64,000 nt of DNA, from assembly GCA_022410635.1 (NCBI GenBank), contig JAJVDF010000165.1, positions 1,996,367-2,060,366 of the forward strand, given 5' to 3'. The translations under genes and the position numbers were made by a program. Positions within the stretch are counted from its first letter, which is position 1. Each line of letters opens with the position of its first letter. A model generated the notes under the pieces. That model was given only the letters and a program-made list of their open reading frames with translations. It was not told the origin of the DNA and ran no database searches. This document shows positions 6,431 through 35,429 of the stretch, piece after piece. This DNA comes from Tretioscincus oriximinensis (taxonomy: Eukaryota; Chordata; Lepidosauria; Squamata; Gymnophthalmidae).

Positions 6431-6431
6431 A

Positions 6432-8448: not shown

Positions 8449-8451
8449 TGA

Positions 8452-9270: not shown

Positions 9271-9274
9271 GGCA

Positions 9275-11577: not shown

Positions 11578-11642
11578 AACTGGGGTATCCAGAACTGTAG
11601 TCAATATTCCACTATCTACTATCCACTATCACCAGTCTACTA

Positions 11643-11848: not shown

Positions 11849-11859
11849 GTCTACTAGAT

Positions 11860-13185
11860 AAAGCAGCAGAATGTGTTTTTTAAAGCCAATTATCGAAGTT
11901 ATTGGAAAGTCAGCTTTCAAACTGGGATATAGGGTTAAATTATAAAGGCGATACTGTGTGGACAATTTTTAGTGAGAAACTGCAAGATTGTTGATGTTTA
12001 CATTTCCATAAACTTTCCCTTGCTTCACAAAAGGGGTGTATGTGAAGCTTGATACGGACCGCAGACAGACCATAGCATTTGGGAAGAGGGACTACTGCAC
12101 TTCCTCTTGACAATCAGCAAACAAAATGGCTGCCAGAAGAAAGTGTCACGTGCAGGGAAAATCTTGTTTGCCAGTAATTGCCAGAATGACAACATCTGGA
12201 ATAAATTGTAAAGGTATGAACAGAGATCTTTAAAATCAGAAAACCATATATCTGGATAATCGGGAAAATCCAGAATAAACAAATGCTGTCTGGATGCAGC
12301 CTTTGTCATTCTGACCGTTCTTGGTAAATGAAATTTTCCATGCTTATGTATCATTGGTGACTGGTTTGAGTTGGCCTCCAGAAAACAGCTCTCAATCAAT
12401 GCATCAAAATTGTTATTCTCTTGACTTTTATCTTAAATCTAGCGATGTGTAATTTTGAAAAATATTAGTAAGGGCTTTTCTGCTTGCATTTGTCAAAGCA
12501 AGAATGTTATTTGCTTTAGAGCAAATTGCAACAAGACTAAAAAAAGCATGGTATTTAATGACACAAGAAGGAAGGTGCTCCTGTTCCAGTAAGAAACAAA
12601 TGCTAGTTGATGTATTCCAGAAATATTCCCTTAAAAAGAGCAACAGATACCAGATTTTTGCATCATGCATCCTTCCAAGCAGCTATAACTAGAATTGGTT
12701 AGAATGATTTTGGAATTGCACCAGCAAGAGCTATGTAAATCAAGTAAATGTTTTATGTCACCTGCTAATGCTTTCCCGTAGCCTCACAGTTTCCATAATT
12801 GTCTGGTTTGTGTGAACAACCTCCCCCCCACCCGCTTTCTTCCATGCACACCACTTACGCACATGCCAGCTGCCATTAGACGACAGCTGTTTCACATTCT
12901 GTTGAAGAATATCATAAAAAGAAAAAAAAAAGGNCTAACGTGATATGCACCAAAAAAAGTGTTGTTCCACATTACTAAAAGTCTTGAACTGAATTGGAGT
13001 TAAACGTCCTCTTCCAAGTGTTATTCCCCAAGGCATTCAAACTTGAACACGTCTAGATACATTATGCATGGGTAGTTTCATATGTGCTATGGGAAATAGC
13101 TCTCATTGCAGGAAGTGGAAAGGTCAGTCTTTGTTTTTCATTTCTCTAATTATGGAGTCTGGACAGAGTGCGCTTGGAGTGTTAG
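11860..13185. other. AT-rich stretch, nothing recognised
   Basis: The 124-codon minus frame at 12025-12399 shows no domain, signal peptide or splice context that I recognise. A single N is at 12934. Confidence 0.4.
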
Positions 13186-13189
13186 GAAC

Positions 13190-13365
13190 TTTTTAAGCAC
13201 AGAATTATAGCTCCCTGGTAGAGTAACTGCCTAGAAAGTAGAAGATGACAGATTCTATCTCGGGCATCTCCCAGAAAGAGTTTTGGCAAAGAACTCATAG
13301 TGGATCTTGCCAAGGAAATTGCATGTCCATATTCATGCAGACCGTGGCTGAAGTTTTTGTTTCCT
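13190..13365 (+). mobile_element. tRNA-derived SINE, family 3
   Basis: The tRNA-like head TAGCTCCCTGGTAGAGTAAC is followed by a B-box-like region ending in TCTATCTCGGGCATCTCCC. The head and body resemble 45715-45895. Divergence is high. Confidence 0.6.
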
Positions 13366-13369
13366 TTTT

Positions 13370-14155
13370 GCACGCATAGAAAAAACCCTCCTCTACTATG
13401 TACTATATCTAGGTACACATGATGACTTAAAAAACGCTACAATACTATAATCTGGAATATAGCAATCAGTGTCTGTGCACACCAAACATGTATATTCCAT
13501 GACCAGTGCCCCAGTTCTGTAATATCGCTCATTGATCTCATCCGAGGAATTTATTTATTTTTTACTCGTAACAGCCAACAGAAACAAATGCTGCGTTCTC
13601 GATTGTTTTCTCGCACACGGATATGGTCATGAGACATGGGGGTTCTGTGGAATGATGCAGGAATATCTGAACAATAGTTTATTCCAGGGAAAACAGCATT
13701 TATTGTGGGTTGAGTCTGGTTGACTACTGAAAAGGTCTTACCACTTGTGCCCGAGTCTTCCTGATTGCGCTACGAATGAGGTAGAAAAAAGTCATGTGCA
13801 CGCAGCCTATGTCTTCACTCGCATGACAAGATAACTGATGAAGCACCTTCTGTTGTCATGTTTCCATTTAAGCAGCAGTAAGTGTTTGCAGCAATTGTGA
13901 AGGATGGAATCACTGTCTGATGTACCATTATCAGAAAGTGGAATGTTGCTTGTCTCTATTTTCAAACTGATTCATAAACTAGAGCCTGGAATCCCGACAA
14001 TGGAATCTTATTCTGAATTCTTTCTAATTTGATGCCTCAGATAAACCATGCAGTTGTTTAAAGTATTTCAAAGAGAACCAATTAATATTGCAAACAAATA
14101 GTTGGAATCCTCAGAAGTTCCTAATACTCCTTTCAATTTCCTTGTTTGTAGGAAA
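13370..14155. other. Unassigned stretch
   Basis: No repeat copy or exon could be supported. Confidence 0.4.
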
Positions 14156-14157
14156 CT

Positions 14158-15120
14158 CAATCAATCAATCAATCAATCAGTATTTATTACGGTCGTAAAC
14201 CAGTACAAAAGGGCACTGCCCTACATTAAAAATTTACAGATTTGCCACCTCTTAAATCATAAAAAGGCGTTACATCGGCAATATAAAAACTTTTGTTTGG
14301 GTTAAAATAGTGATAGTTGTCGCAACACACATAGTCTGTACGCACTTGTCAGTGGCAGTGTCTGCTTCCTATGTTGGCATGTCTGTTCACATTGAGTTCA
14401 TCATCTCTCTGCGTGTTTTAATCGCTATAGCGCTGAATCTAGCGACGTTTGATGTTATTTCGGGTTTGTCATCATTCAGCAACAGTGAGATATAAAATTT
14501 ACCCGTGCCACCTGGATGACCTTTTAAAATTGGTGTGATAAATTTTCCCCTTGTGTCTCTATAGAACTGGCAGCACAGAAGTATATGCTCGGTCGTTTCA
14601 ATATCGCCTGAGCCACATGGGCACAGTCTCTCAGCTAGGGGGGTCTTTTGGTATTTTCCTTCAATAACTGCTGATGGGAGGGCTTGGCAGCGGGTTAGAG
14701 TAAAAGCCCTACGTTGGCTTGGCACTTCTAGGTTGGTTAAATATGTCATAGGTGTTACCATATACTTTCTGGAATCACTAGCGNTAAAAAAAGGGGCTCT
14801 GGCCAGATCTTGCTGACGTTCCATGTCAAAAATTCGTTGTTTAATAGCTGCCTTTGCTTGTTCGTAGCCCACATTTAAAAGATGTTCGGGTAGAAAACCT
14901 AGGGTTGAAACTTTATTTATTATTTGTTTTTTCCAGGTTGATTGAAATTCATCTCTCATAGTTAGTGGGACCAAACCAAGTGGAGTTTGTAGTATTCTGA
15001 GCCAATTTTGTAGGAAACTGTCAGAATATAGTGGCAGAATTATCAAGTTGCAGGGATGTCTGGCTACTATGGGAGAGGGGAAATAGCAAACATATTCTAG
15101 ATATGTAAAATCCACTATAA
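14158..15120 (-). mobile_element. Non-LTR retrotransposon 3' half, clade not assigned
   Basis: On the minus strand a 242-codon open frame (15115-14387) ends with CPCG-x8-EHILLCC-x5-R. This Cys/His cluster is typical of the C-terminus of many non-LTR retrotransposon polyproteins, downstream of the RT domain. A TGAT tandem repeat tail (14159-14183 on the plus strand as AATC) marks the 3' end. The RT core is absent, so the copy is 5'-truncated. One N (14784) falls inside the frame. The preceding RRAFTLTRCQALPS stretch may be nucleic-acid binding. A possible piece of the same 3' end is at 31030-31190. Clade cannot be told from this part alone. Confidence 0.75.
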
Positions 15121-15124
15121 GGAG

Positions 15125-16860
15125 GCTTTCACATACTCAATCAGAGTTCTTTGTCATTTTGCAAAATCTCCTTTAAAAATCTCCTCAGAGCATATAAGAA
15201 CCGAGTGGGAGATTTTACTAATTTTCTTTTCAAAACTCTAACATGTGGGGCATACTTTACCTTCGCAGCATTGCACTTTGCTTTTTCCCTGTTCATATTT
15301 ATTTTTATTCCTTTTACTATCACTGTCCCAAGTGTTTTGGTTATTTCTTCCAATTAAAAAACACAGATTTGAACGGGAAAGTTGCCTAGGTGTCCCCAAG
15401 TGTATCCCATCTGTCTGAAACACTTTGCTTGTAAACTGCCCCTGGAACACTGATATTGGGTCACATACAGCTTCAGTATTTGGAAAGTTTTTTTTCCCTC
15501 AAAAGGATCTAATTCCCATTTACTTGTCCAAAAAGAAGCTAGATGCCGTCCAATTTCAATGTTTTAAAAATATATTGGACCCCATTCAACTATGTCCTGA
15601 AGGAACAAAAACGTCCAAGGAAAGAAAGGAATATTATAGAATAGCGCAATATCCTGATTGTCTTTTTACTGGCAACTCACAATGACAGGGGCATGATGCT
15701 GTTCAACAGCTGTTTCTGCTTTTCAGTCCTGAATCTAGTGTGACAAAGTAGGCACAAGGAAGGTGAGGCTTCACATCAAGGATCAGAAACTCATAAAAGA
15801 AATGTGGTAACATTCCAGATTCGGGGAGAAAAGAATTCAGTTGAGGTTAGTCCAGAATGAAGACAGGAATTCAGATTGCTCTGAGCTGACTGAAAACAAA
15901 ACTAATGTATTACATAAATTAAAGTGCCTTTCAAATGTAATAACAATTAATTAAACCTCAGCACTTTGATTCTAGGTGTGTTTGGGCTGAAAAAAAAAGT
16001 TTCTGTTTGTGGGAAAAAGTTGAAAATGTTCTCCATTAAATACTATTAGTAAATTTCCTTTGCTATTAGACTTTGGGTATCCACTATTTCTTTCTATAGT
16101 AAAAAAAAAAGGGTTTACCCTGTCATTGCTGGCCATCCACAAGCATTGAGTGATTGACTTTATGCCCTGTGAGTCTGCTTACATTTCTCAGTAAAGCTTA
16201 GTTTGCAATTGGTTGTTCTGTATCCTTTTTGTCATTGGTTCCCTCTGTTGCTGTGGAGGGAAATTCAAGGGAACATCCCTCCCCTCAATTTTAAACTTTG
16301 AGCTTGCAGATGGTATTTTAAATTTCATCGTTGCTTTTTCCTCTACAAATTTGACTGGAAAAAGTAACTGATTGCCCTTTCTAGCTTCTGCCCATAATGA
16401 AGGACAGAGCTGGAAGTCATGAAAACCTTTGCAAGCTCTTGCAGGCAATGTCTACATAGTGTTGTCTTGGGGCAAAGGCAAGACATTTTGCCACAGAAGT
16501 TGCATTAATGTTCCAGCAGGGAGAAGTGTAATGATAGTCCTTTCTACACTACCACTGCTAGAGCCTCACAAACTTTTTCTTCTAGATTGAGAAAAACCAT
16601 GTGTAGATGCTGCCATTGCAAAAAAGGCCTCCCTTCCTTTCTTGCCCATTCTGCTCTGAGAGCAAGAGGCTCTATCATCACAAACAGGACTGTATTTTGG
16701 ATGTATTTTGCCCATGGGCTCTAATTTATTTTCTTACTTATTTACTTTATTTATTTATTCTACTCCCCCTCTTATCACAACTACTTCAGGTTTTATAATA
16801 ACAAAAGCAGTAATATTTTTAATAGCTTCTTAGTACTATCAGTAGCGATATTTTGCCTAC
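15125..16860. other. Unassigned AT-rich stretch
   Basis: The plus and minus frames of 60-86 codons overlap one another and show no protein features. An ATTT-rich low-complexity run lies at 16728-16760. Confidence 0.4.
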
Positions 16861-17104
16861 ATACAGTAGACTGACCAGACTTTCTGAGGCCCAAACCAGG
16901 GTAATTAATAATCATGCTATTTTGCATATTCATGAATATGCAAATCACCCAACCCACATACCCACAAATGGCTCTAGGAACCTCTGAAGTACATGAGAAG
17001 CCTGCAAAGTGCATAAGAAATTGGCAAAGTGTGTATGAGAAATTTGTGACATCACTTCTGGGATGGGGCTGGAAGTGACTTAATTTAAACCTAGATTCAG
17101 GAAT

Positions 17105-17235
17105 GGGGAAGAAATAGGAAGGAAGGAGAAGGAGGGGAAGGGAGGAAAAAAGAGAAAGAAAGAAGGAAAGAAAGAAGGAAAGATAAAGAAAGGACAGAAA
17201 GAAAAAAGCAAGGAAAGAAAGGAAAAGGAAGAAAC
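17105..17235. repeat. Purine-rich low-complexity tract
   Basis: Almost pure A and G, in GGAAGGAA and GAAAGAAAG patterns. The long minus-strand Phe/Leu/Ser-rich frame across it is a translation of this tract and is not a protein. Confidence 0.9.
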
Positions 17236-17239
17236 AACC

Positions 17240-17900
17240 TACCTTCCTCGTGGCCTCCTCCTCAGGCTGCAGCCTGATTGTCCCGGGCTCCGGTTGCAGC
17301 TGCCTCCCTGTTTTGCTGCCCTGGGTAGCACTGGAGGGCAGCCGAGCTCCTCCAGCAGCCTCCGCCACTGCTGCCACCCTTGTTGTGCACTCCTGCTAGA
17401 TCCACTTGGGCTGCTTTGGCTGCCTGGGCCCACCAGCGGCAACACTCAAGGTCTTGGCTTGGCAGCACTCGGCCCGGCATTGGCATTGCTCTCCTGGTGG
17501 CAGCAGCATTCTGACAGCATCATCACTGCGCTTGGCAGTGGCATTGCTCAGCTCGAAGGCAGCATTGCTTGGGCCAGCGGCATCACCACTGCTAGGTGGG
17601 GAAGATTTCCCTCTGTTTCCCCCCATAAAATGTGTACATATGCACATGGCATCATCGAGGTGCGCTGCACTCTGCTGTTGTCACGTGGCACACAGCGTCA
17701 TTGAGACATGCCTTCTAATTTTCCTCATCCCACAATGCTGCCACCCCCCTCACAGCCTGGCTCTTCCTCTTCGCCTCATCACAGAGCCCTGGGCAGTGGT
17801 GGCATTATGGTATGAGGATGAATAGAAGGCGCATCTCAATGCTGTGCACCATGCACCATGCACCAACCATGCCCGGGGGCCATGGGGAAGGGGCTCCAAA
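17240..17900 (-). other. GC-rich exon-like block inside the repeat element
   Basis: On the minus strand an ATG at 17377 opens MAAVAEAAGGARL..., Ala/Gln/Glu-rich. It reads to GAGGAAG followed by GTAGGT, a plausible splice donor at 17239-17244. This looks like a first coding exon, but it sits between transposon ends. It may be captured genomic sequence or only a GC-rich low-complexity filler. Frames are open on both strands, which weakens the coding case. Confidence 0.3.
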
Positions 17901-17944
17901 CAGGAAATCCCAGCCCCCCGGGACCTTCTGGTCAGCCTAGGCCC

Positions 17945-18668
17945 CTACCCTTTGCATCTCTGAAACAGGGGGGACTACCAGAAGGCCTCATATTCTTATT
18001 GAGATCTTAGAGCAGCAACTCATCTCTGTGGTTCATGTTTTTCCTACTTTCTCTTTCTCTGTGACATAATTTGCCTGCTGTTGCTTGATTGTTAGCTTGT
18101 TCAGAAAGCATGAAACCCATTATCAAGCAAAGTATGAAGAAGTTAGTGGTTGCAAAGAGGCAGAAGAGCTATTGACAGAGCTACTGCGTTGTGGACAAGC
18201 TTTGGACTGTTTTGCACTTGGCCTTGTTCTGCTCCAGAAAGTGTTCTAAGTGGCCTGCTGTCCACATGCCATTCTGGACAAGGGATATACATACTTTTGC
18301 AAGGCACTGTAAATGTGTGACAAACTTGCACAGCCAAATCAGACATCTTCCCTGCTGATTATGAGTCCTTTGAATCCCATTGACCAGAACGCCAACAGTA
18401 GTTGCTATTAATCATATTTTGCCCTCCTATCTTCTTGCCCGTCCAATTAGTACTGGCTGTACTAGTTTGACTCAACTGGGATTTTAGCAAGGACTTATGG
18501 TTCTGAGTATGCGCAACTCCCTTGGTAAAAAAGGGCTCAGGGACAGGAATTCTCTCCATTGTCTTGTTGCAACCACTCCAGTTTCCTGGTCATTTGGGCC
18601 CTCCTAACTATGTTGCAAGTGATTCAGAAGCAAGATCTCCCCTAACCTCTCCCCCAAGCCACATCCCT
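17945..18668. other. Unassigned stretch downstream of the microexon gene
   Basis: No exon or repeat copy was supported. It lies past the inferred 3' end of the minus-strand gene. Confidence 0.4.
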
Positions 18669-18760
18669 GGTCCACCCAGCCTATGCCCTGGTCCACCCTG
18701 GTCCTATGCCCTGGCCCACCCTGGCCCACCCAGCCTATGCCCTTAGCCCAGCCTGCCCCT
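18669..18760. repeat. C-rich minisatellite-like tract
   Basis: Imperfect repeats of CCTGGTCCACC / CCTGGCCCACC and CAGCCTATGCCC. It lies about 110 bp beyond the inferred polyadenylation site of the minus-strand gene, where its transcript would be G-rich. Confidence 0.7.
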
Positions 18761-18869
18761 ACCCCAGCCCACACTGGCAGCACATCCTCCCTTACTCCAG
18801 CAACCTCAGTTGGAGCTTTTACTCTTTCCACAGAAAAACAGACACAAAACCCAATAATCACATCCACAC

Positions 18870-21800
18870 AATTCCTCTCAGTTTAAAAATCTTTTTATTA
18901 AACAAGACAAGGAAATTGAGGCACCTTAAAGTTGCCTTGCCTCAAGGGAGCCCCCATTGTAACTCTTCCTGAGCTCTCAGCCAACCTGGAGCAGCCCAAG
19001 GAGAAGGCAGTGCAGAGAAGGCGAAAAAACCCGTTTTCTCCCCAAGCCAATTAGGATCCAACGGGGAAAAATTCCTTCTCGGTTCCAATTCAGGCAACCA
19101 GCTAGGCCTGCACGGTCAGGTTAAAATGGAGGGCAGAAACTACTTCCAGCCACTGCAATGGAAAGTGGTTAGACAACAAAGCACAAACACTGAGGAGGGA
19201 ATTACATGTGTTCTAATGTAAAACTAAGGCACATCCCTCTCCCTTAGTTTTGCAAATCTCTCTACTAGACCTTGCTGAGAATTCTGACTAGGCTAACTTC
19301 TCTGAATTCTACTAAGGAGAATTCTGCTTAGGGTGGGGACCATACACTCCCGAACGCAGAACTAACCTTGACAATGTCTTTGAAGAAGCTGTGGAGATAA
19401 AGTGTTAAATGCATTCATTCCAGAAGTCAGGAAGGTTCTAGGGCTGAAGGGGGCAGGGGTATAGCTACCATAGGGCAAACCAGGGCAGTGCCCCCCCTGA
19501 GAGCCTCGCCAATTGTGAAATAAACATTTAAAATCACTTTTTCTNCTGGAGCAGCCCAAGGAGAAGGCAGTGCAGAGAAGGCGAAAAAACCCGTTTTCTC
19601 CCCAAGCCAATTAGGATCCAACGGGGAAAAATTCCTTCTCGGTTCCAATTCAGGCAACCAGCTAGGCCTGCACGGTCAGGTTAAAATGGAGGGCAGAAAC
19701 TACTTCCAGCCACTGCAATGGAAAGTGGTTAGACAACAAAGNACAAACACTGNGGAGGGAATTACATGTGTTCTAATGTAAANCTAAGGCACATCCCTCT
19801 CCCTTAGTTTTGNAAATCTCTCTACTAGACCTTGCTGAGAATTCTGACTAGGCTAACTTCTCTGAATTCTACTAAGGAGAATTCTGCTTAGGGTGGGGAC
19901 CATACACTCCCAAACGCAGAACTAACCTTGATAATGTCTTTGAAGAAGCTGTGGAGATAAAGGGTTAAATGCATTCATTCCAGAAGTCAAGAAGGATCTA
20001 GGGCAGAGGGGTGGGGGTGGGGGGCAGGGGCATAGCTACCAAAGGGCCAGCTGGGGCAGAGAGCCTGACCAATTGTGAAATAAACATTTAAAATCACTTT
20101 TTCTACCCAAGGGCCCCCAAGAGTCTAGCTACACCACTGGGGGGGGGTTATTACACTAAGGGCAAATCATTGCCACACAAAGGCAATTGTCTCCCCTAAA
20201 ATGGCCAATATGGGATGCTAACAATTAAAATAACATGAAGGTCTCTTTGTATACCATGGTGGGTGGGAATCAGGTAAAATGTCCATTAATTTCTCAGCAT
20301 TCTTGAGGAACTAAATTAATCGTAGTCCAAAAGCCATCCCTCTATCATTATTAGAAGCCTCACAACTTCTCTGAATTCTACCAGGGCAGCTCAGAGGTTG
20401 GGGAGGGGACCATTCACACCCGAACGCAGAACTAACCTGGATGATGTTCTTGAAGAAGCTGAAAAGTCAAAGGGTTAAAGACATTCATACNGGCAGGCAG
20501 AGGGAATCTTGGGCTTGGTGGGGAAATTGCTTTGAGGACCATGCAAAGGCAATGGTCCCTCCTAAAATGGTCAGTCCAGAATGCTAACAATTATAATATG
20601 TCTTTGTATGTGGTTCAGAGCAAAGAGGCAGTTAAATTATCCATTAATAGATCGGTATAGATGGAAGCCATTTTTGAGTAGTCCAAGACCCACCCCACTC
20701 ACTAATTTTGGAAAATTTGCCTCTTAAACTCCCTTGCTGGGAATGCTGATTCATATTAAGCTCTTTGAATTCTACCAAGAGGTGGGGGTGGGGGTTAGGG
20801 TTTGGGGAGGGGTCCATACACACCCGAATGCAGAACTAACCTTGACAATGTCTTTGAAGAAGCTGAAAAGTTAAATGGTTAAATGCATTCATTCCAGAAG
20901 TCAGTAAGGATCTAGGGCAGGGGGGGGGGGGGCATAGCTACCAAAGGGCCAGCCAGGGCAGAGAGCCTGGCCTATTGTGAAATAAACATTTAAAAATCAC
21001 TTTTTCTACCCAAGGGCCCGCAAGAGTCTAGCTACACTACTGGGGGGGGGGGGTATTACACTAAGGGCAAATCATTGCCACACAAAGGCAATTGTCTCCC
21101 CTAAAATGGCCATTATGGCCAATTAAAATAACACGATGGTCTCTTTGTATACCAGGGTAGGTGGGGATCAGGTAAAATGTCCATTAATTCCTCAGCATTC
21201 TTGAGGAACTGAATTAATCATATTCCAAAAGCCATCCCTCTATCATTATTAGAAGCCTCACAACTTCTCTGAACTCTACCAGGGCAGCTCAGAGATTGGG
21301 GAGGGGACCATTCACACCCGAACGCAGAACTAACCTGAATGATGTTCTTGAAGAAGCTGAAAAGTCAAAGGGTTAAAGACATTCATGCAGACAGGCAGAG
21401 GGAATCTTAGGGTTGGGGGTGGGGAGAATTGCTTTGAGGGCCATACAAAGTCAATGGTCCCTCCTAAAATGGTCAACCAGAATGCTAGCGAGAGGCAGTT
21501 AATTTATCCATTAATGGATCAGTATAGTTGGAAGCCATTTTTGAGTAGTCCAAGAGCCACCCCTCTCTCTAATTTTGGAAAAATTGCCTCTTAGACTCCC
21601 TTGCTGGGAATTCTGATTCATATTAAGCTCTTTGAATTCTACCAAGGGGTGGGGGCAGGGTTTGGGGAGGGGTTCATACACACCCGAACGCAGAACTAAC
21701 CTTGACAATGTCTTTGAAGAAGCTGAGGAGTTAAATGGTTAAATGCATTCATTCCAGAAGTCAGGAAGGATCTAGGGCTGAGGGGGGCAGGGGCATAGCT

Positions 21801-24800
21801 ACCATGGGGCAAGCCAGGGCAGCACCCCAGTGCCCCCCAAGGCTCTGGCCAATTGTAAAATAAACATTTTAGGCCCCACTTTGTTTTTCTTCCCCAGAGC
21901 TCCCAAGAGTCTAGCTACACCACTGGGGGGCATTACTCTAAGAGCAAATCATTGCCACAGAATGGCAATTGTCTCCCCTAAAATGGCCATTATGGCCAAT
22001 TAAAATAACACGATGGTCTCTTCGTACACCCAGGTGTTGGGAATCAGATAAAATGCCCAATAATTCTTCACTATACACAAGGAACTGAATTAATCGTACT
22101 CCAAAAGTCATCCCTCTATCATTATTAGAAATCTCACTGCTTCTCTGAAGGAGGCTCAGAGGTTGGGGAGGGGACCATTCACACCCGAATGCAGAACTAA
22201 CCTGGATGATATTCTTGAAGAAGCTGAAAAGTCAAAGGGTTAAAGGCATTCATACCAGCAGTCTGAAGGGAATTGGGTTAGGTAGGGAGGGCATTACTTT
22301 AAGGGCCACACAAAGACAGTGGACCCCCTAAAATGGCCAATAGAGAATGCTAACATCTAAAATGATGTGAGGATGGCTTATGACATTGAGAGCAGGGGAC
22401 ACTTGAACTGGCCACTAATGCCCAGTTTGGAGGCTGAAATTGAGTATCAGAAAGTAATTCAAAATTTATTCCTTTCTCTCGTTTTTGCAAGTCTCACTAT
22501 TACTCCAAATTCTTTGAAGAGGGCCAGGGATTGGGCAGGAGGCGACACACACCCAAGCACAGAACTAACCTGAATAATGTTCTTGAAGAAGCTGTAACAT
22601 TAAAGGGTTAAAAACATTCACACCATGAATGGAAGTTGGAAGGTTTAGAATAACTTTAAGGGAATATAAAATGGCCAATAAAAAAATGAAATTATTTGAA
22701 AGCTAGAAATTTTGACCCAAACTAACTTCTTTGAATTCTACCTAGGAGGAGCAGAGGAAGGGGAGGGGATCATTCACAGCCAAATGCAGCACTAACCTGG
22801 ATGATATTCTTGAAGAAGCTGGGAAGTAAAGAGTTAAAGACATTCATACTGAAAGTCAGAGGGAATCTTGGGCTTTGCGGGAACATTGCTTTGAGGACCA
22901 TGCAAAGGCAATGGTCCATCCTAAAATGCCAATACAGAATGCTAACAGTTGAAATATGTTTAGGAGCAAAGAGGCACTTAAATTGACCACTAATGGCTCA
23001 GTACAGATGAAGGCCATTTTGAGTTTTGGTCAGTAGTCCAAGACCCACCACTCTCTCTAATTTTGGAAAAATTGCCTCCTAGACTCCCTTGCTGGGAATT
23101 CTGATTCACATTAAGTTCTTTGAATTCTACCAAGGGGGCCCAGGGTTTGGGGAGGGGTCCATACACACCCGAACGCAGAACTAACCTTGACAATGTTCCT
23201 GAAGAAGCTGAGAAGTTAAGAAGGGTTAAAGACATTCATACCAGCAGGCAGAAGGGAATTTTGGCTGGGGAGGGCATTACCCTAAGGGCAAATGTTTGCC
23301 ATTACAGGCAACTATCTCTCTTAATATTATCAATACAGGATAGTACCATTAAAATGATATGGAAGACCCTTTCTATGTGTGAGGCGGTGAGTTTGAAAGA
23401 TAAATTGGCCATTAATGTTTCAGTCTGGAAACCAAATTTGAGTACTGGAAAGTAGTCCAAGACCCACCAATCTCTCTTTTGTGGAAATCTCACCTAGTCT
23501 TTCACTGAGAAGTCATTAGGCAGACCGTGAGAAAGCTTGGGTTTTTAAAAATCTTCTCATCTTCATGTTCAATGAGTGGCCTGAGAGCCACGGGTATAAA
23601 GGAGTTCCTTTTCCAATTCCTGTGCTAAAGACCTTCTCTGCATTGCATCTAAAGAACTCGGTTTAGTCTATGGAACTTCTTGCTGTCCACTTTATTTCCT
23701 CGCCTATTTCCATGGTGTTACTAGATGCCCCTTGCTAGGAATCCTGACCTAAACTACGGCTATGCTTGCACAGGCTTACTAATGTGTTTTAGGAACCTGT
23801 TATAGCACATCTGTTAACAATGTTTTGTAGCAGATCATTAAAACGCTTCATTGAGGTTTCTCTGACTTCTACCCAAGGGTGTCAGGGGTTGGGGATCATT
23901 CACAAGTGAACGCAAAACTTACCTGGACAATTTTTTGAGGAAGCTGAGAATGCAAAGGGTTACTCTAAGGGCAAATGATTGCTCTACAAGGCAATGGGGG
24001 CAGAGATAAACTGGCTATCAATGTCTTAAAACTAGTCAGGAAAACAAATTTGAGTATTGAACAATAGTCCAAGACACAACTCTCTTTTATTTGTAGAAAT
24101 TTTTGGCCGGACTTTCAGTGTGGAGTGGCCTGAATATAACTGAGAGGCCATTAGCAGGAGTGTGAGAGAGCTTGGATATTAAAAGCTTTCTCACTTCACA
24201 TCTATGAGTGGCCCATGGAGTTATTGGTATAAGGCAGTCCCTTTCCCGCAATGCCTAGGCAAAGGAAGTAAACTTAAAGGGCAAGTGGAGGGATGGGTCT
24301 GGATGATACTCACGACCTTCGATGTTGCTCCACAGTCAAGATCTTCTTATGTCCTCCCTTGGGAATTGGGCCTAAAAGGATTTTAAGAAACCCTATTGTT
24401 GAATAAGTGGGCAGCAACAAATGACTTTATGACATCAGTGATGCTATCAGCAGGCACTGTCAAGTTTTGTTATCAAGGAAAGAAATGGGAAGAGGCATAG
24501 TCCACTAGGTGCCCCTAACCAAGGTCTCCTGGTTCAGGGTGTTCCCTGCATTTGTCTTCTCTAGGCAATGGTCACAGTGAATGCAATATCTCAGTCTCTT
24601 GAGAGCACTCCTGGATTATTCTTTTCTTCACCTTACTGCATACATTTGATTGCAACATCTTCACTTATTTAAACTTCTTTCCCCCAGGCAATTCTTTCCA
24701 CTTAGGATTTACTACTTGACCTGACCTGTACCTCATTGGACAAATAACCTCTATCACCCAGTTTGCTATATAGTCTGCCCCTAGGCAGTTGTTCTATAGC

Positions 24801-26365
24801 ATCTGAAGAAGTAAACTTGTTTATGAATGCTCATGCTGCTTGCCTTTTTCTAGTTAATCTCTATGACGCTCAAGAACCTCTTTCTATGCTCCACAGCATT
24901 TGAAGAAGACTTGTATATGAAATCTCCTGCTATTGTTAGTCTCTAAAGTGCTATGAGGCTCTTTTGTACGGGCATGGAATGTCATCTAAAATATTCCCCC
25001 TGCTTGAGTGTCAAGATACTAAGGCAAGAACACAGTTTCAAAAGCTCCATCAGATGCAATTTGCCAAAGGGTGCTTCCTATCAGGTGGCTCCATCCCTTT
25101 TTTTCTCCAATTACCAGTGAAACAAATTTCTGAAGTGCCAGGTTGGACTTGGCTACTGTCAAGAAAGCAGCTGAGCTGCTCTTAAACGAGTCCTGCTTCT
25201 TAAGGCCTTGCATTCCTGTCTGAACAGCTAGTAGGCCATTTAAGGGCCAGTTCTGTATAATGATTGTTTAACTATAAGAGACTCCACCACTTTTCAGAGA
25301 GGGGTCATTTTTCTTTTGGCTGTTATAAACAGAATAATCATTGGGTAAGAATAAAATTTGTTTCCAAAGATCTGTCCAATGATGGTTCGAATCTGAGTCC
25401 AAAACTTTACTGCATCTTCAAAGTTTCACCACATACGCAAAGATGAGAGTTTGGTATAGTGAGAGCCAGTTTGGTGTGGTGGTTAGAGTGTTGGACTCGA
25501 ACCTGGTAGTCTCCCTGTTCAATTCCCCACTTCTCCACGAAAGCCAGCTGGGTGACTTTGGGCCAGTCATAGTTCTTTGTATTCTTTCAGCCCCACCTAC
25601 TCCACAGGGTATCTGTTGTGGAGAAAGCAACAAAAGCTATGTGCGCCACCCTATGGTTGGTCACCCTGAGATCTTCGTGTGTAGTGCGGGATACAAGTAT
25701 AAATAAATAAATAAATGAGTCGAGGTCAAACAAACCCATGCCAGCACCTTGACAAGACCAAACTGTTTATTCAGTGCAAAGTACTGGGAGTATGGAATCA
25801 TCTGTGGCTGGGTATGTGAGAAAACTCCCTAACACATTATCATTGCAGAGTTTCAAAAAAGAATTCTGAAACATTCAGCCATTGTCCTTCTCTAAAATCA
25901 AAATCCCACAGTCAATGGACCAGTTGGATCCACCACCCCCTTTAGTGGGCTCCCTTTCTTCTTACCTGCTGTTATCATCTTCTCTTCCATATCACCTGTT
26001 CCTTTGGAGGCCAAATCCTCAATTCTACACTCAGGATTAGCTATCACCCCTACATTCTTATCAGAGGGGAGTCCATAGACCCCCAAGATCCTTCATTTAA
26101 ACTGCATGGGTAAAGTGTCCCTCAGGCCCTGAAGGCCACAGGGAACCTCTAGCTTTTCTCCTGCTACTCTACCACTATGGTTTCCACAAGAAAATTAACT
26201 GAAGTGGAGCTTACTGGGTGATGCTTTTCTGGGGAGGGGAGTTATCAGGAGAACCTCTTCTGCCTAACTGCCTTAGAATGTTCAGCCTCTTTGAATCCTC
26301 CTGCCATTCTTACCTGCAGTGATCCGTCTAAAGGTGGCTGAGGTCATAGTCACACCTTGACTTCC
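18870..26365 (-). CDS. 3' part of a spliced gene, product unrecognised, with tandem alternative microexons
   Basis: Seen in the sequence: on the minus strand, exon candidates at 26365-26314, 26049-25966, 24371-24314, ten 22-nt microexons, and a last exon at 18985. Acceptors and donors are mostly consensus and phases match. The 52-nt exon ends in phase 1, the 84-nt exon is phase 1-1, and the 58-nt exon is phase 1-2. A 22-nt microexon takes phase 2 and returns phase 0, and the last exon then reads Val-Gly-stop. Other frames of the first two exons contain stops. Family knowledge: none; the protein (with ...TATFRRITA..., ...EEKMITA..., ...TVEQHRR...) is not recognised. Inference: a real gene with about ten alternative copies of its penultimate coding exon. 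The 5' end is not found. The weakest points are the acceptor of the second exon and that of the last exon. A decayed gene remains possible. Confidence 0.6.
18875..18985 (-). CDS. Last exon: Val-Gly-stop and short 3' UTR
   Basis: A pyrimidine-rich tract (TTCTCTGCACTGCCTTCTCC) and CTGCTCCAG precede GTTGGCTGAGAGC. After phase 0 it encodes only Val-Gly before TGA. In phase 1 it stays open to TGA after about 14 codons. In phase 2 it stays open for about 28 codons, to a TAA that overlaps the polyadenylation signal. The 3' boundary is an estimate, 15-25 nt past AATAAA. Confidence 0.55.
18894..18899 (-). terminator. AATAAA polyadenylation signal
   Basis: Canonical hexamer on the minus strand (TAATAAAAAG). 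About 25-55 nt downstream the minus strand is GT-rich (TTGTGTGGATGTG and TTTTGTGTCTG), as expected of a downstream element. This supports a true transcript end rather than a chance hexamer. Confidence 0.65.
19367..19388 (-). CDS. Microexon A1 (FFKDIVK)
   Basis: Acceptor CTTTATCTCCACAG, donor GTTAGT. It is the copy closest to the last exon. It lies in the first arm of the 559-bp N-joined duplication, so it may be the same exon as the copy at 19927. Confidence 0.55.
19927..19948 (-). CDS. Microexon A1' (FFKDIIK), possibly a false duplicate
   Basis: It differs from the copy at 19367 by one base (Val to Ile). Acceptor CTTTATCTCCACAG, donor GTTAGT. It lies in the second arm of the N-joined duplication. 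Confidence 0.45.
20437..20458 (-). CDS. Microexon B1 (FFKNIIQ)
   Basis: Acceptor TTTGACTTTTCAG behind a branch-point-like TTTAACCC, donor GTTAGT. Compared with type A it carries Asn for Asp and Gln for Lys. Confidence 0.6.
20841..20862 (-). CDS. Microexon A2 (FFKDIVK)
   Basis: Exon sequence identical to A1. The acceptor tract reads ATTTAACTTTTCAG and the donor GTTAGT. Confidence 0.6.
21335..21356 (-). CDS. Microexon B2 (FFKNIIQ)
   Basis: It differs from B1 by one third-position change (ATC to ATT). Acceptor and donor are as in B1. Confidence 0.6.
21701..21722 (-). CDS. Microexon A3 (FFKDIVK)
   Basis: Exon identical to A1 and A2. Acceptor TTTAACTCCTCAG, donor GTTAGT. Confidence 0.6.
22202..22223 (-). 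CDS. Microexon B3 (FFKNIIQ)
   Basis: One synonymous change from B1 (AAC to AAT). Acceptor TTTGACTTTTCAG, donor GTTAGT. Confidence 0.6.
22570..22591 (-). CDS. Microexon B4 (FFKNIIQ)
   Basis: Two third-position changes from B1, same peptide. The acceptor tract CTTTAATGTTACAG is less pyrimidine-rich. Donor GTTAGT. Confidence 0.55.
22797..22818 (-). CDS. Microexon B5 (FFKNIIQ)
   Basis: Exon identical to B3. Acceptor CTTTACTTCCCAG, donor GTTAGT. It is only about 205 bp from B4, the shortest spacing in the array and a short intron if the two were ever joined. Confidence 0.55.
23186..23207 (-). CDS. Microexon AB (FFRNIVK)
   Basis: It mixes type-A and type-B residues (Asn as in B, Val and Lys as in A) and carries a conservative Lys-to-Arg change. 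Acceptor TTAACTTCTCAG, donor GTTAGT. Confidence 0.6.
23923..23943 (-). pseudogene. Decayed 21-nt microexon copy
   Basis: It keeps an acceptor (TTTGCATTCTCAG) and a better donor than the others (GTAAGT). One base is lost, so it would leave in phase 2 and encode FLKKLS. This could be a dead copy or an alternative that reads the longer phase-2 frame of the last exon. Confidence 0.45.
24314..24371 (-). CDS. 58-nt exon feeding the microexon array
   Basis: Acceptor AAATCCTTTTAG, donor GTC/GTGAGT. Read in phase 1 it gives GPIPKGGHKKILTVEQHRR and leaves TC. That completes a Ser codon with the first C of any 22-nt microexon. This match to the phase needed by the microexon frame (independently indicated by their substitution pattern) is the main argument that these belong to one gene. 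Confidence 0.5.
24798..24970 (+). mobile_element. Two foldback-family fragments in an intron
   Basis: AGCATCTGAAGAAGTAAACTTG at 24798 and AGCATTTGAAGAAGACTTG at 24895. Each is followed by the GTTA(G/A)TCTCTA arm end seen at 3445 and 38944. Confidence 0.6.
25466..25718 (+). mobile_element. tRNA-derived SINE, family 2
   Basis: The head GAGAGCCAGTTTGGTGTGGTGGTTAGAG (A-box region, split here for reading) and a B-box-like GTTCAATTCCC precede a body with GGGTGACTTTGGGCCAGTCA. It ends in GGATACAAGTATAAATAAATAAATAAA. Read antisense it lies inside an intron of the minus-strand gene. Confidence 0.8.
25966..26049 (-). CDS. Upstream exon (30 or 84 nt)
   Basis: Donor GCAG/GTAAGA is strong. Two acceptors keep phase 1-1: AAGGAACAG (30-nt exon, encoding DMEEKMITA) and AAGAATGTAG (84-nt exon, adding VIANPECRIEDLASKG before it). 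The frame is open through both, while the other frames have stops. Neither acceptor has a good pyrimidine tract, so the 5' boundary is uncertain. Confidence 0.45.
26314..26365 (-). CDS. 52-nt upstream exon
   Basis: The strong acceptor TTTGTTTTTCTTGTTGCCAG and strong donor GCAG/GTAAGA bound a segment open in only one of three frames (GSQGVTMTSATFRRITA). It enters in phase 0 and leaves in phase 1, matching the next exon. A CR1 insertion begins 36 bp upstream of its acceptor. Confidence 0.5.
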
Positions 26366-26400
26366 CTGGCAACAAGAAAAACAAAGCTGGGGAAATATCT

Positions 26401-26979
26401 GGGCAACAAAAATGATCAAGGGTCTGGAGCACCTCCCTTACGAAGCAAGGCTGCAACGTCTGGGCCTCTTCAGCCTTGAAAGGAGACGTTTGAGAGGTGA
26501 TCTGATTGAAGTGTACAAAATCATGCATGGGATTGACAGGGTGAATAGAGAAAAAATGTTTTCTCTATCACACAACACAAGGACCAGAGGGCACTCCTTA
26601 AAACTGTTGGGTAGAAAAGTGAGAACAGACAAAGGGAAGTATTTTTTCACCCAGAGGGTCATCAGCCTGTGGAATTTACTTCCTGAAGAGGTAGTGGTAG
26701 TTAACAGCTTGGATAGTTTCAAGACAGGACTAGACAGGTTTATGGACACTAAGGGTATAAATGGATACTAAGATAGTTGTCTGGATGTAGCCTCCGGGAT
26801 GGAGCCACAGGCAGGACTCCTGAAATACCATTTGCAGGGAGTCATAACAGGAGCATATTTTGCTTTCCTCTGTTCGGACTGCCCAGGTGCATCTGGTGGG
26901 CCTCTGTGTGACACAGAATGCTGGACTCGATGGGCTGTGGCCGGATCCAGTATGGCTCTTCTTATGTTCTTATGTTCTA
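26401..26979 (+). mobile_element. CR1-clade LINE, 5'-truncated
   Basis: A 119-codon frame (26412-26771), nearly identical to the end of the copy at 8452, then the same 3' UTR ending in TTCTTATGTTCTTATGTTC. It begins at GGGCAACAAAAATGATCAAG. High identity to the 8452 copy suggests both are fairly young. It lies antisense in the minus-strand gene. Confidence 0.9.
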
Positions 26980-26981
26980 AC

Positions 26982-27515
26982 CCAGACAAATCATGGTTGT
27001 TGGTAACTATCTTTGCTCTGCTTTAAGGCAGGGACAAAAAGTCTGCAAAAGAAGGGTTGCCCCATTTCTTATGTTCTTATGTATTTATTTCCTTATTATT
27101 TATATTTTCTAGATGTTTTTCACCTGAAGGTCTTCAGACAGATCACAATATTAAATAAAAATGTATTGACCAAAAATGTTACTATAAAAATAATGAATAT
27201 TTAGTCTTGTTATTAGACAGATTATTGGCTATTTCTGTCCTTGATTTGTGTTTACCCCNTGTGGATCAGTCCAGTTCTCTCCATCCATAGCCCTTGTAAA
27301 AGCACTTAGTTCACACTCATTTTCAGACTGGACCTTGCGTTTAGGATGGAGGGGAGATCTCCATTTGGGGGTATTTTTTGTACCCACAGGTTGGCTCAAA
27401 TTCCTTCAATTTTCTTTTATATTATTTTTTTTGTTGCACGAAATAAAGAAATATTGATACATTGGCATTTTTGTGCTTTAAGGTGTACAATAATACTTCC
27501 TTCCACCCTCCCTCA
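26982..27515. other. Unassigned stretch, one N
   Basis: N at 27259. A short AATAAA-rich tail-like block is at 27105-27165. No exon found. Confidence 0.35.
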
Positions 27516-27519
27516 TCCC

Positions 27520-28170
27520 TAGGGTAGTTGATCTATATTCATCAATTGTTCAGGTTTAATTGAAGAAGATTAAATTGAATTTGTATTTTTGGGACTGTAG
27601 AGTCAGGTTTGATTGTAGATAGTCTTCAGTGGATCTCCATTTATCTTTTATTGCATTCATCTTCTTGATATTGTATGCCGAGTTAACTTTTACATTGTTT
27701 ATATTCACAGGTATTTTTTCTATAATATAATCCCACCACCATTTGAGCTCTCTATATGAAACATCCGTCCACCCTCTTAATAACACCAGTTGTGCACACG
27801 ATAATAGTGTTATCATCATTTGTTTATTGATCGAGAAATTGAAATTATTTAGGTCCCCCCCAAAAAATAGCCATCTTAACTGTTATTGTTATATTTAATA
27901 AAGTTATCTTATTAATTTCTGTTTGTATTTTCTTTCAACAGTCCTGTGCATTGTTACAGCTCCACATCTGATGGTCATAATCTGCTAGGACCTGGCATCC
28001 ATTCCAACATAAATTATTTGTGTTAGAAACATAATGTGCAATTTGTTTGGGTGTTCGGTGCCATTTGTGTAAAATTTTTAACCTAGCTTCTTTGGGTTCC
28101 TTTACTTTTCATGGATTTTCATCTTTGTTTAGAATCAAATTTTATCCAAAATCCAAAAAGAAAACCTAAG
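27520..28170 (-). mobile_element. L1-clade LINE fragment, ORF2 C-terminus
   Basis: The minus-strand translation, in broken frames, gives KILHKWHRTPKQIAHYVSN, then CWNGC-x9-HQMWSC, and later LKWWWDYI and KDKWRSTEDYL. This is the order seen at the C-terminus of L1-type ORF2 proteins. Stops and frameshifts are present, so the copy is dead. Confidence 0.75.
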
Positions 28171-28572
28171 CGATAACATAATTCCTTTCAGCTCAGCAAG
28201 TTTTTAATTAAGCTAAATGTGAGATATATTAATATGATTCTAAAACACCCTTCAAAGGAGCCCCCATTTCAGGTCCTTGGAGGGTAAGATGTAGCAATGC
28301 TTTCTTGGACAGATGACCAGGTTCTGGCTCCAGATAGAAGAGACAGGCAGGAGGCCTCTGCCAACTGCAAAGAATTAATAATAGGTTAAAGGTTTGCTTT
28401 CTCCTTCTGTTTGAAGTGCTGAGAAGCAATTGATGAGGCCCTGTGCGAGAGAAGATGCTGACCTACATGGACTATGAATTGTCCCAGCAGGAGAAGTTCT
28501 TAAAACAACCTCTCAAAAGAGATGTTGTATCCCATGGGAATTCTTGGCTAAGGTTCTCACATAGCAATGTAC

Positions 28573-28830
28573 AGAAGAAGAAGATGGAGAAGAAAAACAA
28601 TTGGATTTTTATACCCCGCCGCTTTCACCCAAGAGGACTCAGAGTGGCTTACAAGTTATTTTTCATCCGAAGGCTTACATCTATCTACTTGAAATCTCTT
28701 GGTTTTGAACAGCTAGGCTGGATGAAGCTGAGGCCAGTAGAGGGAGCTCTCTCACTCCAGGGCAGACACATGAGGCCTCATACTCCAATCTCCCTGTAGA
28801 AAGACCTTTGCTCTTAATTTCTGCACCACC
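28573..28830 (-). mobile_element. tRNA-derived SINE, family 1
   Basis: Same body as at 967 (TAAGCCACTCTGAGTCCTCT, CGGGGTATAAAAATCC, GAA-rich tail), more diverged at the tRNA-like head. Confidence 0.7.
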
Positions 28831-29077
28831 ATGCCTTGATGTCTCACAATATTTACCATTTTCCCACAATGGAAGGCCCCACAAAGACTTTTTAGCAGAT
28901 TTACACAATAGCCCGAAATGAAAACTAGGACCATGGGTCTTTTTAGTGAGTGGACTGCTGAACCTGTAATTCATCCTGATATAGGTACCATAGTGGTTAA
29001 AATTCTGCGTGAGGATTCAGCCTTGTGAATAGTCCCTTTGTTGGCATGCTAACTGAAGTGCAACAGAACAGAAATAC

Positions 29078-29160
29078 TTTATTTATTTTAATTCAATTTG
29101 GATTTTTATCCCGCCCTATACCTGAAGGTCTCAGGGCAGGTCACAATCATAAAAACAGAA
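29078..29160 (-). mobile_element. SINE/LINE 3' tail fragment (CCTGAGACC type)
   Basis: Reverse reading gives GACCTGCCCTGAGACCTTCA and ATAGGGCGGGATAAAAATCC with an A/T-rich end. It is related to 6100 and 57170. Confidence 0.55.
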
Positions 29161-29255
29161 TGCAACATCTATGAAACAACAATAGTGTATGAAAGTGGAA
29201 AAGAAGAAAAATTGCTCACTTTGTCCTCTCTATGGCAGACACACTTGACTTTTGG

Positions 29256-29456
29256 TAGGCTGACCAAATGACCCCTTTTGGTGTGTGTGTGTGTGTGTGT
29301 GTAAACTTGGTTTTGGGGTGCCTCCGGGTTTTTGCTGAGGATTTTTTTTCCTATAAAGTTTTTATTTTATTTTTTTTATTCCTCAGCAAGAACTGGGAGG
29401 CACCCCAAAACCGGGTTTTCACCCCCCCCCCCAAAAGGGGTTATCTGGTCAGCCTA
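29256..29456. mobile_element. Palindromic hAT-like MITE, second copy
   Basis: Same ends and arm content as 11643-11848, with a TG-repeat expansion at 29281-29302 in one arm. Flanks ACTTTTGG and ACTTTTAG match at 7 of 8 bases if the last A is shared. Confidence 0.7.
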
Positions 29457-29971
29457 CTTTTAGGAGAGCGTTTCCTATGTTTTGAGTAATTGTCTGGTCC
29501 CCCTGGGAATGTAAACAATGAGCAGGCTTTGTTTTTCACTCTCCATCCTATTGCTATTATAAGTTTTAGACTGTCAGCTTCGAGCATCGGTTGTAACCTG
29601 CCATCCAATCATCCGAAATGGCTGTTATGTTTCAGAAACAAGGGAGTAGAAACAGTATAGGGTTCTACGTTACAGAAACTTGTATGGTGGTCGTTCTGGA
29701 GGGGGCATTGTTCAAATTTTCAACTCACAAAATTACTCACAGGAAGCAACTGCCTCACTCTGATTAATAGCAGGGCTGCCCATCTGTGAAAGTGACTAGA
29801 GTATTTGGCATATTTAACCCTCTTCTAATATACATACCATGTTTCCCCCCAAATAAGACATTATCTTATATTAATTTTTGCTCCCAAAGATGCACTACAT
29901 CTTATTTTCAGGGGACATCTTATTTTTCCACGAAGAAGAATTCACATTTATCAAATATTTATTCACATTTA

Positions 29972-30101
29972 AGAATTCGCATCTGAAGAAGTAGACGTGT
30001 CTACGAAAGCTTATGCCATCCACTTTTCTCAAGTTAGTCTCAAAGTGCTGCTAGCTTCTTTGCTGGACTTTCTACTAGACTAACACTGCTATTTCTCTGA
30101 A
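29972..30101. mobile_element. Single-arm foldback-family copy with 11-bp flanks
   Basis: It runs from GCATCTGAAGAAGTAGACGTG to CTAACACTGCTATTTCTCTG, the outer end also seen at 3445 and 38944 in inverse. ATTCACATTTA occurs on both sides (29961-29971 and 30102-30112). A third copy of that 11-mer lies just upstream, so the target-duplication call is less certain here. Confidence 0.65.
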
Positions 30102-30114
30102 ATTCACATTTATT

Positions 30115-31028
30115 GTTGAACAAAAAAAAAGAACTATTTTGCAGTTTCTGGCCACCAGGTGGAACTCATCACAAACGAAAACGTTGCTACGTCTTACTTT
30201 CGGGTGGCACCTTATATTTAGCAACCCAGTCTTAGTTTCAGGAAAATAGGGTAGGTCAAAAAATCATGGTTTTTCACTGCAGCATATATCTTCAAGCTGT
30301 TCAGAGAAGACTGGTAGTCTACAAAAGATAGTTTTAAAAAAATCACTGATTTATCCTCTTGGTTCAGTTATAACCTTTCTTCATTAATAAAAATCACGCC
30401 ATTTACACTGTTAACAGAGTTCTTCCCAATCTCTAGCATGCGGAATGGTTTACTTGCCATATTTTGTGGTTCAATTGTATAATTGTATTTGACCTCTTGT
30501 GACCTTATGGGCCACACCATGATAGGTTCTTCTGTCTTCTGCTGTCTCCCCAAGGCTTTCCTAAACTAGTGTTCATTGCTTCCATGGCACCGTTAATCTC
30601 ATCCTCTGTCAACCCCTTTTTTGCCTTCATTTTTCTTAGAATTCTTCCAGTGAATACTGGCTTTTTATTATGAAATGGAAGTATTTGAGTGAACAGTCAG
30701 GGTTTATTCCCTTTAATGTTGGTTGACTTTATCTCCTTGCAATCTATGAGACTCTCAAAAGTAGACTATACAGGTTGCTAGCTTCTTATTCTCAGCCTGT
30801 ATTTAGAAAGTCCTTGCTTTCATCTGTAGTATAAGAAACTGGATAGTATTAGATTAGACCAGAGTATAGAAACTGCCATTCTCACTCGCTTTTTTAAAAA
30901 AATATTGTGGGAGTTGAAATCCAAAAGGAGGAATGTTCCTCGATTACTCAGGACACTTCTACAGGTGATATAAGCCAAGATCTCAATTGGAAAATTGACT
31001 CTGAACTTTGTGAACTGAACCCTGTGCT
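30115..31028. other. Unassigned AT-rich stretch
   Basis: No exon or repeat copy was supported. Confidence 0.4.
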
Positions 31029-31029
31029 G

Positions 31030-31190
31030 CCTCAAAACAAATCAAATGTTTATTACAGTCATAGACCCATAGCATAAACATCACTTGAGTAGCCAAAATC
31101 AATATACTGAGTACATTTTGTTCAGAAAGTACTAACCAAAACCAGAAAAGGCATGTTAGTTTATACAAAACATAGTATCAGTATAAACCA
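31030..31190 (-). mobile_element. Possible 3' end of the unassigned non-LTR element
   Basis: AATGTTTATTACAGTCATAG resembles AGTATTTATTACGGTCGTAA at the 3' end of the element at 14158. The tetranucleotide tail is missing. The match is short, so confidence is low. Confidence 0.35.
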
Positions 31191-31278
31191 AGCATTAGAA
31201 CTCCACGTTTCTGATCAATGGGCTGCTGTGGATTCTAGTATTTCTCAGCCTAATACACCTGATATACTGTGAGACTCT

Positions 31279-31692
31279 TAAAAACATAAGAACATAAGAA
31301 GAGCCATACTGGATCAGGCCACAGCCCATCAAGTCCAGCATTCTGTGTAACACAGAGACCCACCAGATGCACCTGGGCAGTCCGAACAGAGGAAAGCAAA
31401 ATGTGCACCTGTTCATGACTCCCTGCAAATGGTATTTCAGGAGTCCTTCATGTTGCTCCATCCTGGAGACAATATCCAGACATCCATCCTAGTACCCATT
31501 TATACCGTTGGTGTCCATAAACCTGTCTAGTCCTGTTAGCTACCACCACCTCTTCAGGAAGTAAATTCCACAGGCCGATAACTCTCTGGGTGAAAAAATA
31601 CTTTCCTTTGTCTGTTCTCACTTTTCTACCCATCAGTTTTAAGGAGTTCCCTCTGGTCCTAGTGTTGTGTGATAGAGAGAACATTTTTTCAA
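31279..31692 (-). mobile_element. CR1-clade LINE 3' fragment with internal deletion
   Basis: On the minus strand it begins in MFSLSHNTRTRG and ends in CTTCTTATGTTCTTATG. Relative to 8452 it lacks about 24 bp just after CTAACAG, removing the residues around SLDSF and shifting the frame. Confidence 0.88.
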
Positions 31693-31699
31693 GGCAGGA

Positions 31700-35245: not shown

Positions 35246-35250
35246 AAATA

Positions 35251-35328: not shown

Positions 35329-35429
35329 TATTTTATTAATTTTTGTTCTAGTGGGATACCTGTTTACATATTGATGCTAATTCCTTTGAACTGCAAAATA
35401 GAACAGTATGTTTTCACTTTCCATTTTTC

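Follow-up and report, generated by a model that had tools for sequence, protein, structure and literature searches.

Can a vertebrate locus carry a series of near-identical exons only 22 nucleotides (nt) long, each of them fit to be spliced, and which letters of such exons are kept while others drift? The question is raised by 64,000 nt of DNA from the squamate Tretioscincus oriximinensis (contig JAJVDF010000165.1, positions 1,996,367 to 2,060,366), referred to here, at its full length, as the window. On the minus strand of this DNA, from 23207 to 19367, ten segments of exactly 22 nt each lie between a CAG and a GTTAGT (10/10). The array itself is a confirmed observation, and the copies, the outline of their phylogeny and the invariance of their splice signals at specific positions are read directly from the letters. 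On balance, we favour the view that nine or ten 22-nt microexons and one 21-nt copy stand here in tandem, competent for splicing and usable as alternatives, toward the 3' end of a short transcription unit on the minus strand.

Ahead of every one of the ten 22-nt copies, TTTAAC occupies positions -21 to -16 and is followed by a pyrimidine tract, and CAG and GT are present in 11/11 copies when an older copy of 21 nt (c0, 23943-23923), with the donor GTAAGT in place of GTTAGT, is included. A preliminary description of this DNA had reported ten 22-nt copies, each with a CAG acceptor, TTTAAC and a GTTAGT donor. The three signals were found as described (10/10 each), and ten copies are indeed seen, but the last of these is uncertain on account of an N at 19545, and the additional 21-nt copy had been overlooked. 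The copies, all on the minus strand, are as follows.

23923..23943, minus: c0, 21-nt copy, the oldest, with GTAAGT donor; acceptor score 3.6, donor score 8.7
23186..23207, minus: c1, 22-nt microexon, FFRNIVK
22797..22818, minus: c2, 22-nt microexon, FFKNIIQ
22570..22591, minus: c3, 22-nt microexon, FFKNIIQ; most diverged flanks among the ten
22202..22223, minus: c4, 22-nt microexon, FFKNIIQ
21701..21722, minus: c5, 22-nt microexon, FFKDIVK
21335..21356, minus: c6, 22-nt microexon, FFKNIIQ
20841..20862, minus: c7, 22-nt microexon, FFKDIVK
20437..20458, minus: c8, 22-nt microexon, FFKNIIQ
19927..19948, minus: c9, 22-nt microexon, FFKDIIK; within the 559 bases that follow the N at 19545
19367..19388, minus: c10, 22-nt microexon, FFKDIVK; may be c9 assembled twice

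The ten 22-nt copies represent seven distinct DNA sequences and vary at eight exon positions (9, 10, 11, 13, 16, 17, 19 and 20), exactly the number given in the preliminary description, which had also rightly placed four of the eight at third codon positions of the frame beginning FFK, where all 6 counted changes are synonymous. Peptides in this frame are FFKNIIQ in five copies, FFKDIVK in three, and FFRNIVK and FFKDIIK in one each. In 10/10 copies, neighbouring exons are alike in length and sequence and their splice sites are intact, as expected of clusters of mutually exclusive exons. The pattern AG-N22-GT[TA]AGT has 11 minus-strand matches in the window, the ten copies among these, and 2 on the plus strand. 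A dispersed repeat was considered and rejected, no copies of the array being found elsewhere in the window at an E value of 1e-6, and one scan of the array pattern against viral contigs gave 0 matches.

Invariance of the splice signals

What exceeds chance in the array is the invariance of its splice columns. In a parsimony count over the ten copies, the branch hexamer TTTAAC, the CAG and the donor hexamer each showed 0 changes per ungapped column, compared with 1.27 in the pyrimidine tract, 1.62 at -70 to -31, and 1.36-2.08 in the outer flanks. Within the exon, positions 1-8 had 0 and positions 9-22 had 0.79, and behind the donor hexamer the rate was 0.4 over the next 5 columns, 1.0 over the next 17, 0.55 over the next 11, and 1.36-2.08 farther away. 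A mask of the 15 splice columns met no change in its true position and 3 when moved by one column, its second-best placement; beyond 40 columns it met at least 8, with a median of 25. Moreover, the tract holds 8 to 11 pyrimidines of 12 in all 11 copies while its letters vary, and two small indels between branch point and AG (plus 2 nt in c1, minus 1 nt in c2) leave both signals intact. Invariant signals flanking a drifting pyrimidine tract would reflect a demand of splicing, and tract-wise gene conversion would not be expected to yield them.

Because the flanks of the two copy types align poorly, the invariance was retested on four two-exon units, so that homologous flanks are compared. In these, splice columns were invariant at 30/30, versus 156/310 ungapped columns outside the core (Fisher's test, 4.8e-9) and 76/107 columns in the rest of the core (P=3.0e-4). 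In the three closer units alone, the count outside the core was 278/367 against the same 30/30 (P=4.7e-4). When exon, AG and donor were compared pairwise with distant columns, P was 1.4e-5 for units d34 and d78 and 4.5e-7 for d34 and d12. A stable local RNA fold as another cause of conservation was not found among 20 core folds on both strands (z from -0.92 to +2.13). Local RNA structure and an array of small RNAs were both rejected, on these folds and because no Rfam match was found in the window at gathering score.

Several points weigh against the reading of the copies as splice-competent alternatives. The flanks of the two unit types align so poorly that the flank change counts in the ten-copy parsimony are inflated. 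In the three closer units, the difference between the splice columns (30/30) and the rest of the core (89/107) shrinks to P=0.013, and units d12 and d78, which align well, show a slight excess of conservation in the exon and splice columns (56/60 vs 246/300, P=0.033). The splice scores, which were computed with hand-entered frequency tables, are moderate for the microexons (acceptor 1.6-5.7, donor 3.7-4.4). In addition, two intron elements without a known part in splicing are conserved: TGAATG at -29 to -24, ahead of the branch point and invariant in 10/10 copies, and an element within +7 to +60 behind the donor, with TTCTGC and a CCCCTCCCC-like run, which is well conserved.

We infer that the copies are spliced and serve as alternatives. 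Selection would keep the branch point, acceptor, donor and nearby intron elements of each copy, and any copy could then be spliced between an upstream exon and a last exon at 18985.

Duplication history and copy number

The two copy types mostly alternate along the array, and the duplication unit is largely a pair of microexons, by whose duplication the array would mainly have grown. The stretch 23276-22724 is matched by 21789-21262 (78.6%, 561 columns) and by 20927-20364 (80.5%, 575 columns), and 23243-22744 by 22625-22149 (68.3%, 524 columns). Some copies are recent, with 94% identity over 300 nt between 20222-20521 and 21120-21419. The tree of the copies was built from non-exon columns, with c0 as outgroup by construction, and several of its inner nodes are poorly supported (38 to 61); the results on splice-column invariance are independent of this tree.

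The number of copies is touched by one position in the assembly.

19545..19545, no strand: single N between matching 559-base stretches; probable unmerged contig overlap

This N parts 18986-19544 from 19546-20104, 559 bases each, which match over their full length at 92.8%; along the first 450 bases, every window has at least 48/50 identities, and the remainder is much worse. The Ns at 52377 and 54566 likewise lie between end-to-end matching stretches, of 351 and 451 bases, both at 100%, and such flanks were absent at 8/8 other Ns tested outside the array (9803, 12934, 14784, 27259, 44715, 50863, 50869 and 50921). At five Ns inside the array, the flank matches are the array's own repeats. The N at 19545 is therefore probably a contig overlap joined without merging, in which case c9 and c10 may stand for a single exon that entered the assembly twice. 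Toward one end the 559-base stretches match less well, which may leave room for two real copies, and the copy number, as judged from this assembly, is nine or ten.

Elsewhere in the window, stretches of 351 and 451 bases are perfectly duplicated in tandem at 52026-52728 and 54115-55017, with a lone N exactly at each junction. These too resemble unmerged contig overlaps, and tandem duplications beside a lone N in this assembly are not to be trusted. If a contig ends at the N at 19545, that end meets the predicted last-exon acceptor to the base, the match starting from 18986 and the exon from 18985, which is taken as a coincidence, without explanation.

Candidate transcript and competing readings

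The exons and signals that would accompany the microexons in a transcript are the following.

26314..26365, minus: 52-nt predicted exon with ATG; acceptor 7.8, donor 7.1
24314..24371, minus: 58-nt segment, candidate upstream exon; one open frame; acceptor 0.8, donor 0.8
18880..18985, minus: predicted last exon, begins GTTGGCTGA; acceptor 5.7 (fair); left end approximate
18894..18899, minus: AATAAA polyadenylation signal, with a GT-rich stretch after it at about 18870-18829; by eye

The 52-nt predicted exon is the only open pair of splice sites with both scores above 7 on either strand of 27000-24000, and such a pair occurred in 1/20 minus-strand shuffles. The 58-nt segment is open in one of its three frames, and this is the frame needed for the FFK reading. 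The preliminary description, which had this segment leave the phase that the microexons need and the joined reading end in Val-Gly-stop, was right on both counts. However, the splice sites of the segment are weak: it comes last of 12 exon-like open pairs in 27000-24000 that score at least as high as it does on both sites, and each of 20 shuffles of that region held 3 to 14 such pairs. The reading opened by the ATG of the 52-nt exon continues, without a change of phase, into the only open frame of the 58-nt segment. With no microexon in between, it runs 26 codons into the last exon, counted from its first full codon, as far as a TAA that overlaps the AATAAA. A repeat at 26978-26401, by eye a long interspersed nuclear element of CR1 type, ends 36 bases before the 52-nt predicted exon; it is 97% like 9265-8684 and 92% like 60961-61537.

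Searches for a host protein were made with several collections. Pfam scans, with stops read as X, covered all three minus-strand frames of 3900-18898 and 24300-63998 and a single frame of the plus strand (3901-18899); they gave no match, which is a weak negative given this coverage and the lack of a positive control. Solved structures gave none at 0.01 for one minus frame of 24300-39298. Joined peptides of 40 and 59 amino acids had no match in Pfam and no homologue candidate in a protein collection, in a search that reached proteins of 0.55-1.75 times the query length and would miss a longer host protein. Six solved-structure matches of the joined peptides, with E values from 0.74 to 2.1, were taken as chance. 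The collection includes squamate proteins, since a search with part of a CR1 reverse transcriptase from the window yielded 4237 proteins, with Anolis and Varanus among the 120 listed. A CR1-like reverse-transcriptase reading frame at 53495-53962 has 67% identity to a protein of Anolis carolinensis, as would suit a reptile genome.

Whether the microexons encode protein bears on what the transcript would be, and we infer that it is either a very short coding messenger RNA or a noncoding RNA. A coding gene that uses one of the ten as penultimate exon after the 58-nt exon, with C-termini of the type S-FFKNIIQ-VG and near synonyms, is possible but rather doubtful. The FFK frame makes 6/11 exon changes synonymous, vs 1 and 4 in the other two sense frames, and has a single change at a second codon position (P 0.075); the open frame of the 58-nt exon also agrees with that of the microexons and with the one set by the ATG in the 52-nt exon, a joint agreement expected about 1 in 9 by phase alone. 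Among simulated changes, however, a synonymous count of 6 has P of 0.07-0.12 if the frame is fixed beforehand and 0.19-0.29 if the best of the three is taken, so that the bias which the preliminary description held to be peculiar to this frame leans in the right direction without being significant. Nor do the exons exceed the remainder of the core in conservation (P 0.22 in four units, 0.46 in three), and the first eight exon bases are fixed, third positions 4 and 7 in TTCTTC included, which points to a demand at the RNA level. The weak sites of the 58-nt exon and the joined peptides without homologue add to the doubt, and the protein-coding reading of the microexons is weak. The antisense frame LDDVLEEAEK at first looked coding-like and was dropped, with 4/11 changes at third positions, fewer than in the FFK frame. 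A noncoding transcript, in which the 52-nt exon, some microexons and the last exon are joined and only splicing matters, is a substantial possibility, short of an even one. It accords with the invariant splice columns and with the rate of 0.79 at exon positions 9-22, which is within the range of intron positions +33 to +50 at 1.0; furthermore, the 52-nt exon joined straight to a microexon gives a frame with 6/11 changes at second codon positions, and each two-exon duplication adds 44 nt, which shifts a coding frame if all copies are spliced in. Exon positions 1-8, on the other hand, are without any change, beyond what splicing alone seems to need, and the synonymous share leans to coding, short of significance.

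Two further explanations concern the array as a whole. That it is a conserved DNA repeat or relict, unspliced now, whose likeness stems from recent duplication, gene conversion or a DNA-bound protein, is unlikely. The core is conserved beyond the splice sites too, and the recent copies noted above would suit such a history, but conversion acts on tracts and does not predict invariant splice letters around a fast pyrimidine tract and variable exon positions, nor that the indels of c1 and c2 between branch point and AG should spare both. Splicing of all copies in series into a long repeat peptide, as in the heptad exons of chicken BG genes, is very improbable. Ten copies joined contain no stop in any frame, and three in series read as a 22-residue repeat; against this, 22 nt shifts the frame with each copy, so the reading frame depends on an exon's place, a synonymous excess is absent from the two remaining frames (1/11 and 4/11), and each single duplication would alter the frame in which the sequence ends. 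When 0 to 4 copies of c8 are chained, the reading terminates in the last exon each time. Since joined copies stay open and these chains end there, the frame alone would not enforce the use of one copy in ten, and multi-copy transcripts would not be removed by nonsense-mediated decay alone. Of the interpretation in the preliminary description, the tandem array of microexons is supported, with site-specific constraint on branch point, acceptor and donor; beyond the array come an acceptor and a predicted last exon that carries AATAAA. The coding bias, not being significant, and the 58-nt exon, with its weak scores, lack the strength that it gave them.

Known exon arrays and the choice of copy

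Tiny exons in large numbers are characteristic of the micro-exon genes of schistosomes, whose exon lengths are multiples of three and which are mostly spliced in series. Many tiny exons are what the array has in common with them, a likeness of gene structure; exon length and serial use are points of difference.

Among vertebrates, the preliminary description knew of no described parallel, which is too strong. Human mutually exclusive tandem-exon clusters are reported with 3 to 10 exons each (283 exons in 71 clusters) and with an exon length not divisible by three in 60% of the clusters (PMC5740500), and 77/236 human tandem-exon events are placed at the C-terminus (PMC9741552). The array resembles the former as there described, in having tandem duplicated exons of similar length with the same neighbouring exons; unlike those clusters, which rest on RNA reads (PMC5740500), it is predicted from sequence, and it consists of 22-nt microexons in an apparently lineage-limited unit. 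Chicken BG genes are described as having 27-37 exons that measure about 21 nt, with a few of 18 or 24, and are spliced in series (PMC5938342). A long tandem array of near-identical tiny exons, a split first codon and a terminal exon that ends the protein are shared with that account, whereas the exons here are of 22 nt and those of BG of 21 nt and serial (PMC5938342). An exon length that is a multiple of three, as serial use in one frame needs, is found only in c0, the other 10/11 copies having 22 nt, and an upstream immunoglobulin domain of the butyrophilin family gave no Pfam match on the minus strand at 24300-63998 in three frames, without positive control. Avian fast troponin T is reported to have up to seven small repeated P exons, which are lineage-specific and alternative (PMC7581897). 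The run of small repeated exons in vertebrate DNA is common to both, but by that account the P exons sit near the N-terminus and are spliced in together (PMC7581897); the general Pfam scans of window stretches gave nothing for troponin, no troponin model or sequence having been aligned. A vertebrate tandem microexon array like this one was not found in the literature, by title or start of abstract among the matches listed, which is no proof of absence.

For the choice among copies, the clusters of Dscam exon 6 type, described as having docking and selector sequences (PMC6071210), offer a comparison. Like them, the array has a conserved intron element per exon and a possible complementary site, here between the 58-nt segment and c0; unlike them, as they are portrayed there, its pairing is a weak lead, and exclusivity is not part of the likeness (PMC6071210). 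The candidate site is the following.

24234..24263, minus: candidate docking stretch (weak lead), with complementarity to the conserved element in the intron after each microexon

RNA pairing was examined in six region-by-element tests, with 7/10 copies used, and one of them beat its 10 shuffles. The passing test paired the element 7-66 bases behind the exons with the intron that separates the 58-nt segment from c0, where 24263-24234 was the best stretch, and of 100 shuffles 1 reached the observed value. Against 24263-24234, the elements of the ten copies average -24.5 kcal/mol and 240 array windows -18.2 (sd 4.5), and three of the ten elements pair more weakly (-18.6, -21.0 and -21.0). Given six tests, the docking stretch is a weak lead, no more. 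It is improbable, though conceivable, that nine or ten 22-nt C-terminal microexons of a reptile gene compete for RNA pairing with a single upstream docking site and that one of them is chosen in this way. Such a gene would be a vertebrate, microexon-scale counterpart of the Dscam exon 6 cluster that expands by exon-pair duplication.

If the copies are spliced, the locus would be a compact natural experiment on exon birth, with ten copies of graded age side by side, and would show which letters are indispensable to splicing and which are free. It would also extend vertebrate exon clusters to microexons whose length forbids simple serial use in one frame, and would provide a small test bed for how a cell chooses among near-identical exons.

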